Shown one piece after another: positions 8,608 through 23,157 of a stretch of 64,000 nt of DNA (its first letter is position 1; the number at the start of each line of letters is the position of its first letter). Below the pieces are notes generated by a model. That model did not search any database, was not told the origin of the DNA, and saw only the letters and a program-made list of their open reading frames with translations. Location: assembly GCF_963666525.1 (NCBI RefSeq), contig NZ_OY762905.1, positions 2,400,001 through 2,464,000 on the forward strand, read 5' to 3'. The DNA comes from an uncultured Cohaesibacter sp. (GTDB lineage: Bacteria; Pseudomonadota; Alphaproteobacteria; Rhizobiales; Cohaesibacteraceae). A program made the translations under genes and the position numbers.

Positions 8608-8623
8608 CGTTTCACGTGAATCT
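8608..8623. promoter_or_regulatory. parS-like ParB-binding site 1
   Basis: CGTTTCACGTGAATCT matches the parS consensus TGTTTCACGTGAAACA at 13 of 16 positions and keeps the central TTTCACGTGAA. It is in the intergenic region between holA and the MFS gene. Confidence 0.65.
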
Positions 8624-10115: not shown

Positions 10116-10131
10116 CGTTTCACGTGAATCA
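10116..10131. promoter_or_regulatory. parS-like ParB-binding site 2
   Basis: CGTTTCACGTGAATCA matches the parS consensus at 14 of 16 positions. It lies between the MFS gene and the 3' end of parB, just beyond the parB terminator. Confidence 0.75.
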
Positions 10132-10187: not shown

Positions 10188-11057
10188 TCACTTCTCGAGA
10201 ATTGAGATAATCGCATCAAGCTGCTCAAGAGATTTGTACTGGATCTTCAACTCGCCGCCTTTTTTCTTTGGCGCAATGAAGACATTCCAGCCAAGGCGGT
10301 CCGTCAGCCGCTTTTCCAGGGCTACCGTATCGGCGTCCTTTTCCTTCTTCGGCTTTGGCTCTTTCGGATTCTTGTCCTTCTCCTGCCCTGCCTTTTCAGC
10401 ATCACGCACGGTCATGCCGTCTTCAACGATTCGGCGGGCCAATTCTTCCGGATTTTCAGCCGTAATCAGCGCACGGGCGTGCCCAGCCGTCAACTCACCC
10501 TTCTTGAGATAATCCTTGATGCTTTCTGGCAGTTTGAGCAGACGCAGGGTGTTGGCAACATGCGAACGGCTCTTGCCGATGACATCGGCCAGTTCCGCCT
10601 GCGTATAGTCGAACTCGGCGATCAGCTGATCATATCCCAGAGCTTCTTCCAGAGCATTGAGGTCGGCGCGCTGTACGTTTTCAATGATGGCGAGTTCGAG
10701 CGCTTCCTTGTCATTGACGTCATGAATGAGCACCGGCACTTCATGAAGACCGGCGGCCTGGGCAGCCCGCCAGCGACGTTCACCGGCGATGATCTCAAAG
10801 GAATCGCTGCGCCCATCTACCGGACGGCAAAGAATGGGCTGCATGATACCCTTTTCCTTGACCGAGCGAGTCAGATCATCGAGATCCTTCTCGACGAAAT
10901 CCCGGCGCGGATTCCTCGGGTTTGGCCGCAGGAATTCAATCGGAATGCGGCGCTGGGACCGAGCCCGCTCGATCGCCTGCGATTCGTTATCCATATCACC
11001 AATGAGAGCGGCCAATCCGCGTCCCAACCGTTTGCCTTCAACTGGTTTTTTCGTCAT
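10188..11057 (-). CDS. parB: Chromosome partitioning protein ParB
   Basis: A protein of 289 residues. The N-terminal KRLGRGLAALIGD is the ParA-stimulating region. The ParB/CTPase domain carries GERRWRAAQAAG (box II) and IENVQRADLNALEEA (part of box III), followed by the KorB-type helix-turn-helix with IGKSRSHVANTLRLLKLP. A Lys/Glu-rich linker leads to a C-terminal dimerisation domain. ParB loads at parS as a CTP-dependent sliding clamp and organises the origin region for segregation. The start at 11057 is chosen because the upstream in-frame starts (11066, 11075) have no Shine-Dalgarno-like sequence; the support is modest. It is the last gene of mnmG-rsmG-parA-parB and ends at a strong terminator. 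Confidence 0.95.
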   Translation of the reverse strand: MTKKPVEGKRLGRGLAALIGDMDNESQAIERARSQRRIPIEFLRPNPRNPRRDFVEKDLDDLTRSVKEKGIMQPILCRPVDGRSDSFEIIAGERRWRAAQAAGLHEVPVLIHDVNDKEALELAIIENVQRADLNALEEALGYDQLIAEFDYTQAELADVIGKSRSHVANTLRLLKLPESIKDYLKKGELTAGHARALITAENPEELARRIVEDGMTVRDAEKAGQEKDKNPKEPKPKKEKDADTVALEKRLTDRLGWNVFIAPKKKGGELKIQYKSLEQLDAIISILEK

Positions 11058-11138
11058 TTTCCGCATTCCCATCAAACCCGCAGCGCGACCGCTTCACCCG
11101 GATCCGACTTCCCTCTTGTCAATTTGAGACAGCCTTGA

Positions 11139-11969
11139 TCAGGCTGCCTTGTTACGCAACTTCTTCTCACGCTGAATGATTTCCGAAGCGAGCTTGAGAT
11201 AAGCCTGGCTGCCAGAGCATTTCAGATCATAGAGCAGCGCCGGCTTGCCGTAGGATGGAGCCTCGGATACCCGCACATTGCGCGGAATGATCGTCTCATA
11301 AACCTTGTCACCCATATGCTCCCGCACATCTTCCACCACCTGATTGGAGAGATTGTTGCGGCTGTCATACATGGTCATCACGATTCCATGAATTGAAAGC
11401 TCCGGATTGAGTGCGCCTTTCACCTGATTCACAGTCTGAATGAGCTGCGTCAAACCTTCAAGCGCAAAGAACTCGCACTGCAATGGCACCAGAATGGAGT
11501 GAGCTGCAGCCATGGCATTGATAGTCAGGAGGTTGAGGGATGGTGGGCAATCAATCAGAACATAGGTAAAACGCTTATCTTCCGGGATCCTGTCACCCAT
11601 TTCGCCATGCCGCTCAATGGCCCGGCGCAACCGGAAGGCACGATCCTTGTCACCCGAAATTTCCTGTTCAAGACCAAGCAGATCCATAGTCGAAGCAGCA
11701 ACGGACAGGCGCGGAACCGCAGTCGGAATCGCAGCTTCCATCAACGTAGCTTCGTTCAGAAGAAGCTCTGCCGTCGAAATATTGCGTGACTGACGATCGA
11801 TCCCAAGCCCGGTGCTCGCATTACCCTGAGGATCAACATCCACGATCAGAACGGTCTCACCAATCGCCGCCAAAGCGGTACCCAAATTGATTGCAGTCGT
11901 CGTTTTCCCGACGCCGCCCTTCTGATTGGCAAGGGTCAGAACGCGGGGAGATTCAGGCAGTGAACTCAT
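11139..11969 (-). CDS. parA: Chromosome partitioning ATPase ParA
   Basis: A 276-residue deviant Walker ATPase. The Walker A motif is KGGVGKTTT (residues 18-26) with the signature lysine, and Walker A' is VDVDPQGNAS; Walker B appears as VLIDCPPSLN. It binds DNA non-specifically as an ATP dimer and drives movement of ParB-parS complexes. The short N-terminus indicates a chromosomal Soj-type ParA without a DNA-binding HTH extension. GTGAGG precedes the ATG. It lies 28 bases after rsmG and about 80 bases before parB in one leftward operon. Confidence 0.97.
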   Translation of the reverse strand: MSSLPESPRVLTLANQKGGVGKTTTAINLGTALAAIGETVLIVDVDPQGNASTGLGIDRQSRNISTAELLLNEATLMEAAIPTAVPRLSVAASTMDLLGLEQEISGDKDRAFRLRRAIERHGEMGDRIPEDKRFTYVLIDCPPSLNLLTINAMAAAHSILVPLQCEFFALEGLTQLIQTVNQVKGALNPELSIHGIVMTMYDSRNNLSNQVVEDVREHMGDKVYETIIPRNVRVSEAPSYGKPALLYDLKCSGSQAYLKLASEIIQREKKLRNKAA

Positions 11970-11997: not shown

Positions 11998-12654
11998 CTA
12001 TGCGTTTTTGGGTGATAAGCGGCGCAAAATGACGACCCTCGCATCCGGATCTGTCCTGCTGCTTTGTTGTACCAGATCTACATTCCAGCGGACACTAGCC
12101 TCGCTCAATTCTCGATCAAAGTCCCGACCTTTGTGGAAAACACCCACACAACTTTCAGAAATATGGGGATGAATAAAGCCGCACAATTTATCGAACGAAG
12201 CAAGCGCCCGGGCACTGAAGGCATCGACCGGATCGGACCAGTTTTCAAGCACCGATTCGATTCTGTCGCCATGTACCACCACCTTCAATCCAAGCTCACG
12301 CGCCACTGTCTTGAGGAAGCTGCCCTTGCGCCCGTTGCTCTCGATGAGATTGACCCGATAGTCCTCTCCCAGATCATCCAGCAGGATCGCCGTCACCAGC
12401 CCTGGAAAGCCAGCCCCCGACCCCATATCGATCCAGTAGCGGGCCTCAGGACGCGCTGCATGAATCTGAACACTGTCGGCGATGTGCCGCACCCAGATTT
12501 CGTCCAGAGTCTTGGGCGCCACCAGATTCTGTGCTGGTTGCCACTTTCTCACCAGCGCCGCGTAGGCATCCAGCTTGCCCACGGATTCACGTGAAACCGG
12601 GAGCATGGAAGAAATCAGCTCGATGCCGCGTGTCTTGTCGTCCATTTGCTTCAT
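11998..12654 (-). CDS. rsmG: 16S rRNA (guanine-N7) methyltransferase RsmG (GidB)
   Basis: A 218-residue Rossmann-fold methyltransferase that makes the m7G527-type modification of 16S rRNA in the 30S decoding region. The SAM motif GSGAGFPG is at residues 78-85. RHIADSVQ and the ESNGRKGSFL motif are typical of the family. Loss-of-function mutations of rsmG often give low-level streptomycin resistance in other bacteria. It lies between mnmG and parA in the classic gidA-gidB-parA-parB order. A parS-like 16-mer (12583-12598) is embedded in its 5' coding part. ATG 12654 is used; ATG 12645 is the alternative. Confidence 0.95.
   Translation of the reverse strand: MKQMDDKTRGIELISSMLPVSRESVGKLDAYAALVRKWQPAQNLVAPKTLDEIWVRHIADSVQIHAARPEARYWIDMGSGAGFPGLVTAILLDDLGEDYRVNLIESNGRKGSFLKTVARELGLKVVVHGDRIESVLENWSDPVDAFSARALASFDKLCGFIHPHISESCVGVFHKGRDFDRELSEASVRWNVDLVQQSSRTDPDARVVILRRLSPKNA
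12583..12598. promoter_or_regulatory. parS-like ParB-binding site 3, inside rsmG
   Basis: GGATTCACGTGAAACC matches parS at 13 of 16 positions and keeps TTCACGTGAAAC. It lies within the rsmG coding sequence, so its preservation must be compatible with codons for the N-terminal VSRES region. Confidence 0.65.
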
Positions 12655-12719: not shown

Positions 12720-14564
12720 TCACATCCGCTTGCTATGCGCCAATACCAGCGTCAGAGCGGCAGGCGTCATACCATCGATGCGCGAGGCCTGGCCCAGTGT
12801 CTGTGGCCGGACGTGATTGAGCTTCTGCTTGAGTTCGTTGGACAAACCGTTGATCGCATCAAATTGCAAATTCGACGGAATCGCCAGAGCCTCATCCTTG
12901 TTGAAGGTCTCGATGTCATCGGTCTGACGTTCCATATAGACCTGATAGAGCGCCTCCACTTCCAGCTGCTTGCGTGCGCCCTTCGAGAAATTCCCGAACT
13001 CGGGCCACACCGCAGTCAGGCGATCAAGATCAAGATCCGGATAGGCCAGCAACTCATAGACGCTGCGGCGCTGACCATCCTTGTTGATCTTCAACCCATG
13101 GCGCTCAGCTTCGTTCGGCGTCAGGCTCTTTTCCCGCGCCAGAGCCGAGATGGCTTCCAGTTCTTCCTTCTTGTGATTGAAACTCTTGCGTCGTGCATCG
13201 TCGATCAACCCCCAGGCATCCGCCTTTCCGGTCAGCCGCTGATCGGCATTGTCTGCCCGAAGCGACAGACGATACTCGGCGCGGGAGGTAAACATCCGAT
13301 AAGGTTCCATCACCCCTCGGGTGATCAGATCATCAATCATCACGCCGATATAGGCATCCGAGCGGCTAAGCACCACACCATCCTGACCACCACACTGCCG
13401 GGCAGCATTGAGACCGGCGATCAAACCCTGAGCCCCAGCCTCTTCATAACCGGTCGTGCCATTAATCTGCCCGGCCAGATAAAGTCCGGACACCCGCTTG
13501 GTCTCAAGTGTCGCCTTCAGCTCGGTAGGATCGATATAGTCATATTCGATCGCATAGCCATACTGCTTGATCTCGACATTTTCGAGACCGGGGATGGAAT
13601 GGATATAGGCATCCTGAACGTCTTCAGGCAGCGACGTGGAAATGCCGTTCGGATAGACCGTATCCACATCCAACCCTTCAGGCTCCAGAAACACCTGATG
13701 GCCATCGCGATCGCCAAAGCGATTGATCTTGTCCTCGATGGACGGACAATAGCGCGGCCCCACCCCTTCGATCCGACCCGAATACATAGCGGATTTGTGG
13801 ATGTTGTCGCGAATGATCTTATGGGTCTTGTCGACGGTACGGGTCACATGGCAATCGATCTGAGGCGTCGTGATCTTTTCCGTCAAATAGGAAAAGGCCA
13901 CTGGTTCATCGTCACCCGGCTGCGTTCCCAATGATGAATAGTCGATCGTGTTGCCATTGAGTCGTGCTGGCGTTCCGGTCTTCAGACGACCAAGACGGAA
14001 ATTTTCCGACATCAACCGCAGCGACAAATCATTGGCGGCAGGATCACCCATCCGCCCGGCAGAGAAACTCTTCTGCCCGATATGAATGAGCCCACGCAGA
14101 AACGTACCCGTTGTCAGCACGACTGCACCACAGGCAATCTCGGCACCATTCGCCAGAGTAACGCCCGTCACCTGCCCGTTTACAATCGCCATGTCCGCGA
14201 CCTCACCATCGATGACAGTAAGAGTCGGGATATCGAACAGTAGCGCCTGAACAGCATCACGATAGAGTTTTCGATCTTCTTGCGCCCGTGGCCCCTGCAC
14301 GGCCGGACCCTTGCGCCGATTGAGAAGACGAAACTGGATTCCACCCCTGTCAGCAGCCAGCCCCATGACACCACCCAGTGCATCAATCTCGCGAACGAGA
14401 TGGCCCTTCCCCAATCCGCCAATTGCCGGGTTGCAAGACATCACGCCGATGGTATTGCGACTGTGCGTAACCAGCGCCACAGACGCACCGACGCGAGCAG
14501 CCGCAGCCGCAGCCTCGGCACCAGCATGTCCACCACCAACAACCACCACATCGAACCGGTTCAT
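12720..14564 (-). CDS. mnmG: tRNA uridine-34 5-carboxymethylaminomethyl enzyme MnmG (GidA)
   Basis: A 614-residue FAD-dependent enzyme that, with MnmE, adds the carboxymethylaminomethyl group to U34 of certain tRNAs. The dinucleotide-binding [10 protein letters not shown] is at residues 10-19. The conserved [23 protein letters not shown] stretch (only in part quoted), CPSIEDK and [17 protein letters not shown] motifs are all present. The C-terminal helical MnmE-binding domain is complete, ending SKRM. Length is normal. GAGAGGG precedes the ATG. It is first in the leftward mnmG-rsmG-parA-parB run and is separated from its partner gene mnmE by 310 bp that carries four parS-like sites. Confidence 0.97.
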
Positions 14565-14725
14565 TCAAAACCCTCTCATTTCGAGAAAAGCACCAGATGG
14601 CACTAAAATTTACATCTCACTCATCGACACCACATAGCGCGTCCTGACAGGAGACGATCTCCAGGATCCATTTCTTCAGATCTTGTTTACATCTCACATG
14701 ATAGCCTGAATAGACCCTGTTTTCA

Positions 14726-14741
14726 GGATTCACGTGAAACA
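14726..14741. promoter_or_regulatory. parS-like ParB-binding site 4
   Basis: GGATTCACGTGAAACA matches parS at 14 of 16 positions; first of the four clustered sites. Confidence 0.8.
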
Positions 14742-14772
14742 GAAAATCTCGCACAATTCTGCGCATTTTCTC

Positions 14773-14788
14773 AGATTCACGTGAAACA
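14773..14788. promoter_or_regulatory. parS-like ParB-binding site 5
   Basis: AGATTCACGTGAAACA matches parS at 14 of 16 positions; second of the clustered sites. Confidence 0.8.
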
Positions 14789-14811
14789 TTCTAGGTAGAT
14801 TTATCGATTCG

Positions 14812-14827
14812 TGATTCACGTGAAACA
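14812..14827. promoter_or_regulatory. parS-like ParB-binding site 6
   Basis: TGATTCACGTGAAACA matches parS at 15 of 16 positions; third of the clustered sites. Confidence 0.88.
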
Positions 14828-14853
14828 GAGTCAATCGCGAATTTCAAAAACTA

Positions 14854-14869
14854 TGTTTCACGTGAAACG
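14854..14869. promoter_or_regulatory. parS site 7 (best match)
   Basis: TGTTTCACGTGAAACG matches parS at 15 of 16 positions and contains the full 14-base palindrome GTTTCACGTGAAAC. It is the strongest candidate nucleation site in the window. Confidence 0.92.
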
Positions 14870-14874
14870 ATCCA

Positions 14875-16218
14875 CTATTTGCCCACACAGAACTGTGAAA
14901 AAATAACGCCGAGCATTTCCTCAACATCAATTCTTCCAGTTATTTTCCCCAGTTCATCCCCAGCCTGCCGCAAATATTCAGACCGGATTTCGATTGGGGA
15001 ATCTGTATAGATAAGCGATTTATTAACATTATCCACACACGAGCTCAGCAATTTCTTATGCCGCTCGCGTGTGATTAGCACATCTTCAGCGCCATCAAAC
15101 AGGGATTCGATTTGTTTCACAAACGAATCGTAAAAGACATCCATACCGATCCCAGCCTTCACCGAAGCGAAAAACGCCTGATCTTCGCCCTTTTCCATGG
15201 AATTTTCATGAAACGGATCCGAATCGATCCTGTCGATCTTATTGAACAGGACCATCCGCCGTGCAGTGCTGTTAAGTTCCACCCGAGCCTCTGGATGCTG
15301 GCCGTCCACCACTTCTATCAACAGGTCGGCATTTTCGCTTTTCTCCAAGGCGCGGCGAATCCCTTCCCGCTCGACAATATTGTCGGACTCCCGCAAACCG
15401 GCCGTATCGATCATCGTCACCGGGTAGCCTTCGATATCGAGATGCAGCTCCAGAAGATCGCGCGTCGTCCCTGCCTCTTCTGTAACAATGGCAACGTCGC
15501 GCTTGGCAAACCAGTTCAGCAAGGATGATTTGCCGGCATTGGGATGACCCGCCAACACCACCGTCAGACCATTACGCAACCGCTCGCCATGATCGGCCTT
15601 GGAGAGATGTCGCTCAATATCGGCTTTCAGTTCGCGCAGCTTTGGCCAGATCACATCGGAAATCGCACCCGGAATATCCTCTTCATCGGAGAAATCGAGT
15701 TCAGCCTCAATCATGCTGCGCGCATGCAGCAACGTCTCGCGCCAACCATCGATCACGCTCTTGTGCGCACCGCTTGCCTGCCGAATCGCCTGCTTGCGCT
15801 GATTCTCCGTTTCCGCATGAATAAGGTCGGACAGTCCTTCCACTGCGGTAAGGTCATATTTGCCGTTTTCAAACGACCGCCGGGTGAACTCCCCTGCTTC
15901 GGCCATCCGGCAGCCATCAAAACTGCCAAGCAGTGCGAGCATCGCCTTGACGACGGCCCGGCCGCCATGCAGATGGAATTCAACCGCATCCTCACCCGTA
16001 AAGGATTTCATGTCGGGAAAATAGATCACCAGCGCCTGATCGATCACATCCCCGCTGTCCGGATGGGTAATGTAGCGCAGAGCGGCAAAACGCGGCTTGG
16101 GTTCCTTGTCAATCAGCCTGTTCATGACTGCGCGGGCCCTGGGGCCAGACAGACGAATCACCGCAACACCGGCAGGCACTGCACCGCTCGAAAGGGCAAA
16201 AATGGTATCTCGCGTCAT
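14875..16218 (-). CDS. mnmE: tRNA modification GTPase MnmE (TrmE)
   Basis: A 447-residue three-domain GTPase, the partner of MnmG in U34 tRNA modification. The N-terminal tetrahydrofolate-binding domain starts with TIFALSSGAVPAGVAVIRLS (residues 5-24). A helical domain encloses the G domain with P-loop GHPNAGKS (224-231), TTRD switch (251-254), DTAG (271-274) and NKID. The C-terminus is CVGK, the catalytic CxGK motif. Length is normal. The gene is transcribed leftward after a gap of about 300 bp from rho. Confidence 0.97.
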   Translation of the reverse strand: MTRDTIFALSSGAVPAGVAVIRLSGPRARAVMNRLIDKEPKPRFAALRYITHPDSGDVIDQALVIYFPDMKSFTGEDAVEFHLHGGRAVVKAMLALLGSFDGCRMAEAGEFTRRSFENGKYDLTAVEGLSDLIHAETENQRKQAIRQASGAHKSVIDGWRETLLHARSMIEAELDFSDEEDIPGAISDVIWPKLRELKADIERHLSKADHGERLRNGLTVVLAGHPNAGKSSLLNWFAKRDVAIVTEEAGTTRDLLELHLDIEGYPVTMIDTAGLRESDNIVEREGIRRALEKSENADLLIEVVDGQHPEARVELNSTARRMVLFNKIDRIDSDPFHENSMEKGEDQAFFASVKAGIGMDVFYDSFVKQIESLFDGAEDVLITRERHKKLLSSCVDNVNKSLIYTDSPIEIRSEYLRQAGDELGKITGRIDVEEMLGVIFSQFCVGK

Positions 16219-19631: not shown

Positions 19632-20277
19632 GATATTTGTCTCCCCGTTTGCAGGCCGAATTGAGCACGATTCCCAGCAAACTTCCTAATAAAATATTTT
19701 AGTTTAATGTTTTGTTTATTCTTTTAGGCCGTGGATTGTGGGGGTTCTTTTTCGCCCACAAATTCCCCACAACACGTCTTGAACAACTGTGATTTTTCTG
19801 ATGCCGATTTCAAGACGACTTTCTGGGATTACGGGGACAAGTCGAGTCCGCCGCAGAAAGCTGCGCCCTCCAATGTGATCAAGTTCAGGTATGTTTGGGA
19901 GACAACTATTGAGCAATTTTTAACAAATTGTGTATTTACTGTTTGTTAACCTTGGTAAACAGAGTGTTAACAACTCGCTCGTTGCTCAATCGAGCTTGGG
20001 GATTAAAAAATGGTTAACGAGCATGAAATCGTGAACACTGAATAAACCGCCTGTTTATCCCACTTTGCCCACAGCCCCTGGGGAAGAATCGCTCACGGGG
20101 CTGTCAATAAGCCAGTTTCAAGACAGTTTGATGAAGGAAATGGCTGAACCCTGCGGGTTTGTCCTCCGGATAGGGTACTATTGGACAAACTGGGGGGAAG
20201 GATCCACAAAGAGCGTTTAGTTTCGCTGCCTGTTGCTCTAAATATCGAACCAACCTTTTACAGCTTGGACCAGTTTC
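19632..20277. other. Putative chromosomal replication origin (oriC)
   Basis: This 646 bp gene-free region lies between hemE and maf. It has an AT-rich block at 19684-19729 and another at 19911-19950. It carries three GTTAAC hexamers (19945, 19966, 20013), a full CtrA box (20003-20018) and DnaA-box-like 9-mers: TTCCCCACA (19763-19771), TTGCCCACA (20065-20073) and GGATCCACA (20200-20208). The perfect inverted nonamers ATTGAGCAA (19908-19916) and TTGCTCAAT (19982-19990) enclose the central TTAA-rich part. Location next to hemE, divergent flanking genes and a nearby parS array fit the alphaproteobacterial origin. The DnaA boxes are weak, so the exact minimal origin is not defined. Confidence 0.75.
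20003..20018. promoter_or_regulatory. CtrA-binding site in the putative origin
   Basis: TTAAAAAATGGTTAAC is an exact TTAA-N7-TTAA match, the CtrA consensus. In Caulobacter, phosphorylated CtrA bound at oriC sites blocks initiation in swarmer cells. Role here is inferred from site and position. Confidence 0.7.
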
Positions 20278-23141: not shown

Positions 23142-23157
23142 GGATTCACGTGAAACC
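23142..23157. promoter_or_regulatory. parS-like ParB-binding site 8
   Basis: GGATTCACGTGAAACC matches parS at 13 of 16 positions and is identical to the site inside rsmG. It lies between the dnaQ stop and the shared terminator, on the other side of the putative origin from the other seven. Confidence 0.65.

Follow-up and report, generated by a model that had tools for sequence, protein, structure and literature searches.

Four clustered parS sites between mnmE and mnmG as a probable ParB-loading core in Cohaesibacter

The gap between mnmE and mnmG in the genome of an uncultured Cohaesibacter carries four parS-type sites within 144 bp. This array is very probably the ParB-loading core of the Cohaesibacter chromosomal centromere, probably grown by duplication and possibly damping its own operon. 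Its most likely function is to load ParB, judging from the sequences that we have compared. Strong support for the proposal of the earlier note, a parS array on which ParB nucleates, comes from the sequence of the sites, from their clustering within the genome, from their conservation in 18 of 18 genomes of the genus and from the presence of a cognate ParB.

The sites of the array

In the window (the whole stretch of 64,000 nucleotides that was analyzed) the stop of mnmE and the start of mnmG are separated by a gap of 310 bp, and this houses all four sites. Sites A (14726..14741, plus strand; GGATTCACGTGAAACA), B (14773..14788, plus; AGATTCACGTGAAACA) and C (14812..14827, plus; TGATTCACGTGAAACA) differ from the 16-mer TGTTTCACGTGAAACA at two, two and one positions, respectively. 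Site D (14854..14869, no strand assigned) has the symmetric core GTTTCACGTGAAAC and a single mismatch, and lies 5 bp from the mnmE stop. At each of the four there is thus the palindrome TGTTTCACGTGAAACA, or a close relative of it, that is expected of a chromosomal ParABS centromere. The four sites of the earlier note are real, and its mismatch counts and its start-to-start spacings of 47, 39 and 42 bp were right. Its start positions hold for the 16-mer; its motif proper, TTCACGTGAAAC, begins three bases further on.

The same note had described the spacing as about four helical turns, and this does not stand. In the 18 genus genomes the spacings range from 39 to 61 bp, and the 16 unique values show no significant phasing, with p = 0.22 for a period of 10 bp, 0.14 at 10.5 and 0.10 at 11, so that helical phasing near multiples of 10.5 bp was rejected. 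A sharp period is also absent from a broader set of 301 spacings, the range of which is fixed by the search pattern.

Clustering of sites around parAB

The array does not stand alone. The window contains eight matches to TGTTTCACGTGAAACA at up to three mismatches where 0.14 are expected, at 8608, 10116, 12583, 14726, 14773, 14812, 14854 and 23142, and none of 100 shuffled windows reached eight. Four of these are further sites, beyond the array of the earlier note. The site at 8608..8623 (minus strand; three mismatches, exact TTCACGTGAA core) lies between holA and an MFS gene, and that at 10116..10131 (minus; two mismatches) between the MFS gene and parB. The site at 23142..23157 (plus; three mismatches, exact core) is located beyond the likely oriC, where its neighbors are a dnaQ-like exonuclease gene and secB, identified by Pfam RNase_T and SecB. 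The fourth, a match to the pattern at 12583..12598 (plus), falls within the rsmG reading frame, where it is translated as VSRES; the corresponding peptide is VSRET in four genus genomes and in the family relative G018. All 18 relatives that were compared (17 of the genus and one of another genus) have a core within rsmG. In 4 of these 17 from the genus the site is symmetric, and so it has changed over time.

At the level of the genome, the full pattern occurs at 25 places with three mismatches or fewer, compared with nine for the reversed control, and the five places with no more than two mismatches are all inside the window. The exact core TTCACGTGAA is found at 11 places in the 5.18 Mb genome (control 2), of which eight fall in one stretch of 14.6 kb around parAB. 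For 11 random points the probability that any four lie within 14.5 kb is 5e-5 by simulation, and that of four within 144 bp is at most 3e-11. The scan at three mismatches that the earlier note had proposed thus finds the sites concentrated here rather than at equal density throughout the genome; they are gathered near parAB and the likely oriC, and are rare elsewhere.

The par genes and the likely origin

The order of genes is parB, parA, rsmG and mnmG (all on the minus strand), the array, mnmE, rho, hemE, the likely oriC and maf. The putative operon begins with mnmG (gidA; 12720..14564, Pfam GIDA), followed by rsmG (gidB; 11998..12654, GidB), parA (11139..11969, AAA_31 and CbiA) and parB (10188..11075), which is 3.7 kb from the array. 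The neighbor upstream of the array is mnmE (trmE; 14875..16218, minus, TrmE_N and MnmE_helical).

The parB product matches Pfam ParB_N, HTH_ParB and ParB_C, and aligns with Caulobacter ParB (6t1f) with E = 6.7e-72. The alignment shows that the stretches GKSRSHVANT and GHARA are kept, and the parS-contacting residues reported for Caulobacter ParB are located within them, according to the available text of PMC7383237. With its ParB_N, HTH and dimerization domains and the contact residues of a parS-binding protein, this is the ParB cognate to the array. A second match to the ParB_N domain was seen far from the par locus (G000:C1:3574260-3574574), within an open frame of 738 aa.

The gap between hemE and maf (19632..20277; flanking genes Pfam URO-D and Maf) is the likely position of oriC, ~5 kb from the array. 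It was placed there with the help of what we take to be the usual alphaproteobacterial gene order. The gap is partly AT-rich, with a single TTAA-N7-TTAA at 20003, and has no match to the two patterns for DnaA boxes that were tried. The steep fall of the cumulative GC skew stops near 2.42 Mb and is followed by a shallow plateau; over the 404 kb examined the minimum is at 2.48 Mb.

Conservation and frozen asymmetry in the genus

All 18 genus genomes have four sites in the gap, as three consecutive close pairs. In every one of them the inner 14-mers of A, B and C are GATTCACGTGAAAC, all facing the same way, and that of D is the symmetric GTTTCACGTGAAAC, at a distance of 42–44 bp from C. Between the sites the spacers diverge beyond close relatives, to saturation, and at 439 four-fold sites the genus tree has a length of 10.8 substitutions per site. 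At the fitted four-fold rate on this tree ~4.7 A-to-T changes would be expected at each of the three A positions, and none is observed. Thus selection probably maintains both the asymmetry of A–C and the symmetry of D, because the 14-mers are frozen where neutral sites are saturated and because D differs from its neighbors despite being so close to them. Gene conversion inside the array could mask some changes; nevertheless D stays distinct from C. In other words base 2 of the half-site is fixed as A or as T, site by site, across a genus with saturated neutral sites, and this suggests that in vivo one kind of half-site cannot simply stand in for the other. Outside the genus, the family relative G018 (another genus) has two gap sites forming one pair, and G019 (87% complete) has no close pair.

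Arrays in other genomes

How general are such arrays? A three-site pattern matched at least 120 stretches, from Firmicutes, Actinobacteria, Planctomycetes, Alphaproteobacteria and others. Among the matches listed, the largest cluster in each stretch has 3 to 12 sites, and 75 of the 120 contain homologs of par-region genes, with parA or parB in 62 and mnmE or mnmG in 45. The order used for the genome searches is what we take to be the GTDB Rhizobiales; at NCBI the order of Cohaesibacter is Hyphomicrobiales. Here a close pair is found in 66 of 297 genomes. The other 231 have no pair of exact cores spaced 35–65 bp apart, and so a tight array is not needed for segregation. The Cohaesibacter array is therefore ordinary in kind, a known compact chromosomal parS array with similar ones in the same gap of relatives and near par genes in many phyla. 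Pannonibacter, Mesorhizobium, Hoeflea, Bradyrhizobium and others share 2–5 sites in this gap at similar spacing, mostly co-oriented where asymmetric, while the number of sites, the direction of the asymmetry and the presence of GATTC vary by lineage.

The sites of parS1–4 in Pseudomonas aeruginosa are not known to be packed into one gap. They resemble the present set in being four in number and near oriC, as described in the accessible part of PMC4368675. Caulobacter crescentus offers another parallel, an alphaproteobacterium with several parS sites on one side of ori and one half-site better conserved than the other; at least five sites are clustered ~8 kb from ori, the five strongest within 5 kb, whereas Cohaesibacter has four in 144 bp in the mnmE–mnmG gap (PMC5815017, from the portion available).

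The direction of asymmetry was analyzed in 58 alphaproteobacterial loci outside the family, from among the matches listed and with second places in G253 and G170 left out. We denote a site by its left and right halves with mnmG drawn on the left, so that in TA the A half faces mnmE and in AT it faces mnmG. The 138 sites in mnmG–mnmE gaps divide into 67 TA, 18 AT, 51 TT, 1 CA and 1 TC. Where a gap array has at least two asymmetric sites these are uniform in direction in 32 of 36 cases and mixed in four (L025, L317, L318 and L319). A general rule by which the weak half would face a set way with respect to oriC or mnmG was rejected, since lineages differ and there are these mixed arrays. Mixed orientation is also seen in clusters that lie outside the gap (L320, L321 and L330), and outlying sites of G002, G007 and G008 face the opposite way. 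In two of these clusters, L320:2062-2130 and L321:2065-2133 (one family), three sites of mixed orientation follow one another at ~26 bp, and their position is within a few hundred bases of rho instead of in the mnmE–mnmG gap.

Two large arrays were seen elsewhere. A Clostridiales assembly (L119:2094-2561) has twelve cores with a period of 41–42 bp in the mnmE/mnmG interval, and a Ruminococcus MAG (L102:25-493) has nine with a period of 57–58 bp upstream of parA; in both the spacers are near-identical. From their sequences these read as young tandem arrays, and such near-identical units indicate that arrays can grow by tandem duplication. A mostly uniform direction with a sign specific to the lineage is what would be expected of tandem duplication plus some later change. 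Duplication alone fails for the 4 of 36 gap arrays of other alphaproteobacteria in which asymmetric sites face both ways.

A model for the array

We suggest that ParB dimers would bind the four parS sites, shut as CTP clamps and slide onto the flanking DNA. Together with the four outlying sites the array would build a partition complex moved by ParA, some 5 kb from the likely oriC, and the packing of sites at 39–61 bp would raise the local rate of ParB loading. The array has probably grown by tandem duplication of a unit of parS plus spacer, after which the spacers would have decayed and the sites been kept by selection. When bound to the array, ParB may in addition reduce the activity of the mnmG-rsmG-parA-parB promoter. 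On this reading the array adds a well-conserved compact chromosomal centromere to those known, and it points to tandem duplication as the way in which such arrays expand.

Affinity tuning

The fixed asymmetry of A–C could have a purpose in binding. The T-to-A change might tune affinity, with a full-strength half anchoring ParB and a weakened half setting the rate at which it loads or leaves, so that three tuned sites and one strong one give the right occupancy. Such tuning is in keeping with the finding of A in both halves at 0 of 185 sites in the 58 alphaproteobacterial loci outside the family (among the matches listed), and it agrees with Caulobacter, where the GTGAAA half is conserved and affinity varies among sites (PMC5815017, as far as its available text goes). 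However, in 4 of 4 Bradyrhizobium loci every site of the gap is symmetric, which means that weak sites are no general requirement. Nor does any ParB residue separate carriers of the A variant from non-carriers among 98 ParBs from outside the genus (56 with the variant, 42 without). These belong to a sample of 109 from 286 matching genomes, made up of the 30 best-scoring loci and 79 picked for spread of genera. The best residue test gave p = 1e-4, uncorrected and out of many tests. A residue permitting the variant was sought at position 184, for example, the counterpart of which in Noc (by our mapping) touches the phosphate of thymine 2, and none was diagnostic among the 98. We thus hold the tuning of affinity as a tentative idea, rather unlikely as it stands.

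The array as an operator

Loading of ParB at a centromere core remains our preferred reading, and the next question is how far the array serves transcription. A candidate promoter for the mnmG operon, CCTGAA-N17-CTATCA, lies at 14699..14727 on the minus strand, with its −35 element overlapping the end of site A. ParB at site A would cover this element, and so control of mnmG-rsmG-parA-parB by ParB through the candidate promoter is plausible. The stronger form of the idea is that the array is chiefly an operator, ParB (or its competition with RNA polymerase at A) repressing the operon for homeostasis of ParAB, and the centromere being secondary.

Half of the genus genomes (9 of 18) have the motif CCNGAA-N17-CTATNA next to site A, with equal spacing and a variable 17-mer, yet the other nine keep the array without it. 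In 14 of the 18, TTGAC directly precedes site C on the minus strand, but as a −35 element it was rejected since by eye no −10 is conserved at 16–18 bp from it. A scan with a consensus promoter gave two matches where 0.5 would be expected, and one of the two is on the opposite strand; four other sites lie away from the promoter altogether. There is a precedent in P. aeruginosa, where ParB on parS upstream of PA0011 and PA0013 represses both (PMC7022226, in the part available). Taken with the evidence on the other side, we think it unlikely that repression is the chief role. Past the candidate promoter and well upstream of the mnmG start, a GATGTAAACAAG..TCTGAAG-like block at 14650–14690 of the window is conserved in part of the genus.

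GATTC half-sites and methylation

The T-to-A change at base 2 also creates GATTC, an instance of the GANTC motif of CcrM. The GATTC half of A–C might then be a selected CcrM target, such that ParB loading, or transcription of the operon through GcrA, follows the state of methylation after replication. The freezing of A–C as GATTCACGTGAAAC in every genus genome is in keeping with this, as is the taxonomic distribution of the half-site. GATTC makes up 44 of 212 halves in 23 alphaproteobacterial array loci (three of them Cohaesibacter) compared with 2 of 826 in the 97 loci that belong to other groups, among the matches listed and with groups assigned by hand from record titles. In the alphaproteobacterial array loci listed the A halves always follow G, and within the order 139 of 297 genomes have the A variant, whereas the C and G variants combined are found in 32 of the 297. 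The genome encodes GcrA and a protein with a RAMA domain, which we take to be the C-terminal domain of CcrM; among 14 control genomes only Caulobacter has such a protein.

Yet the exact variant is carried by just 5 of 171 genomes with RAMA outside the order, and by 1 of 66 without. GANTC is in no excess in symmetric gap arrays of other alphaproteobacteria (3 against 6.4 expected; nine loci), and in little excess in GATTC arrays (18 against 14.4; 25 loci). CcrM is therefore not supported as a sufficient cause of the variant. As to local density, no 144-bp stretch other than the array has five GANTC in the 404 kb examined; outside the parS sites the gap has 32 where 13.0 would be expected, as counted over 17 genus genomes (that of the window and G018 left out). 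However, three other nearby gaps also exceed expectation by 1.5–1.8 fold. Gaps such as maf–dnaQ contain genes, and the low GANTC counts there are not intergenic values. Moreover, in Caulobacter extra methylases left the state of methylation at the parS locus unchanged (PMC5172544, as stated in its accessible text). Overall this role for methylation is quite improbable.

A broader version, to which we attach very little weight, is that in part of the order the parS sites are methylation-sensitive centromeres with a selected CcrM half-site, at which ParB loading differs between hemimethylated new origins and old DNA. If it were true, such sites would couple the assembly of the centromere to the replication fork as it passes. 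A literature search found the literal variant sequence in no paper on parS, subscription papers, supplements and figures being outside its scope. Within the same scope, and in the text available, the search found no study of GANTC within a chromosomal parS palindrome, a weak negative. GANTC near the parS sites of repABC has been noted previously (PMC11514494 and PMC9040568, in the portions available).
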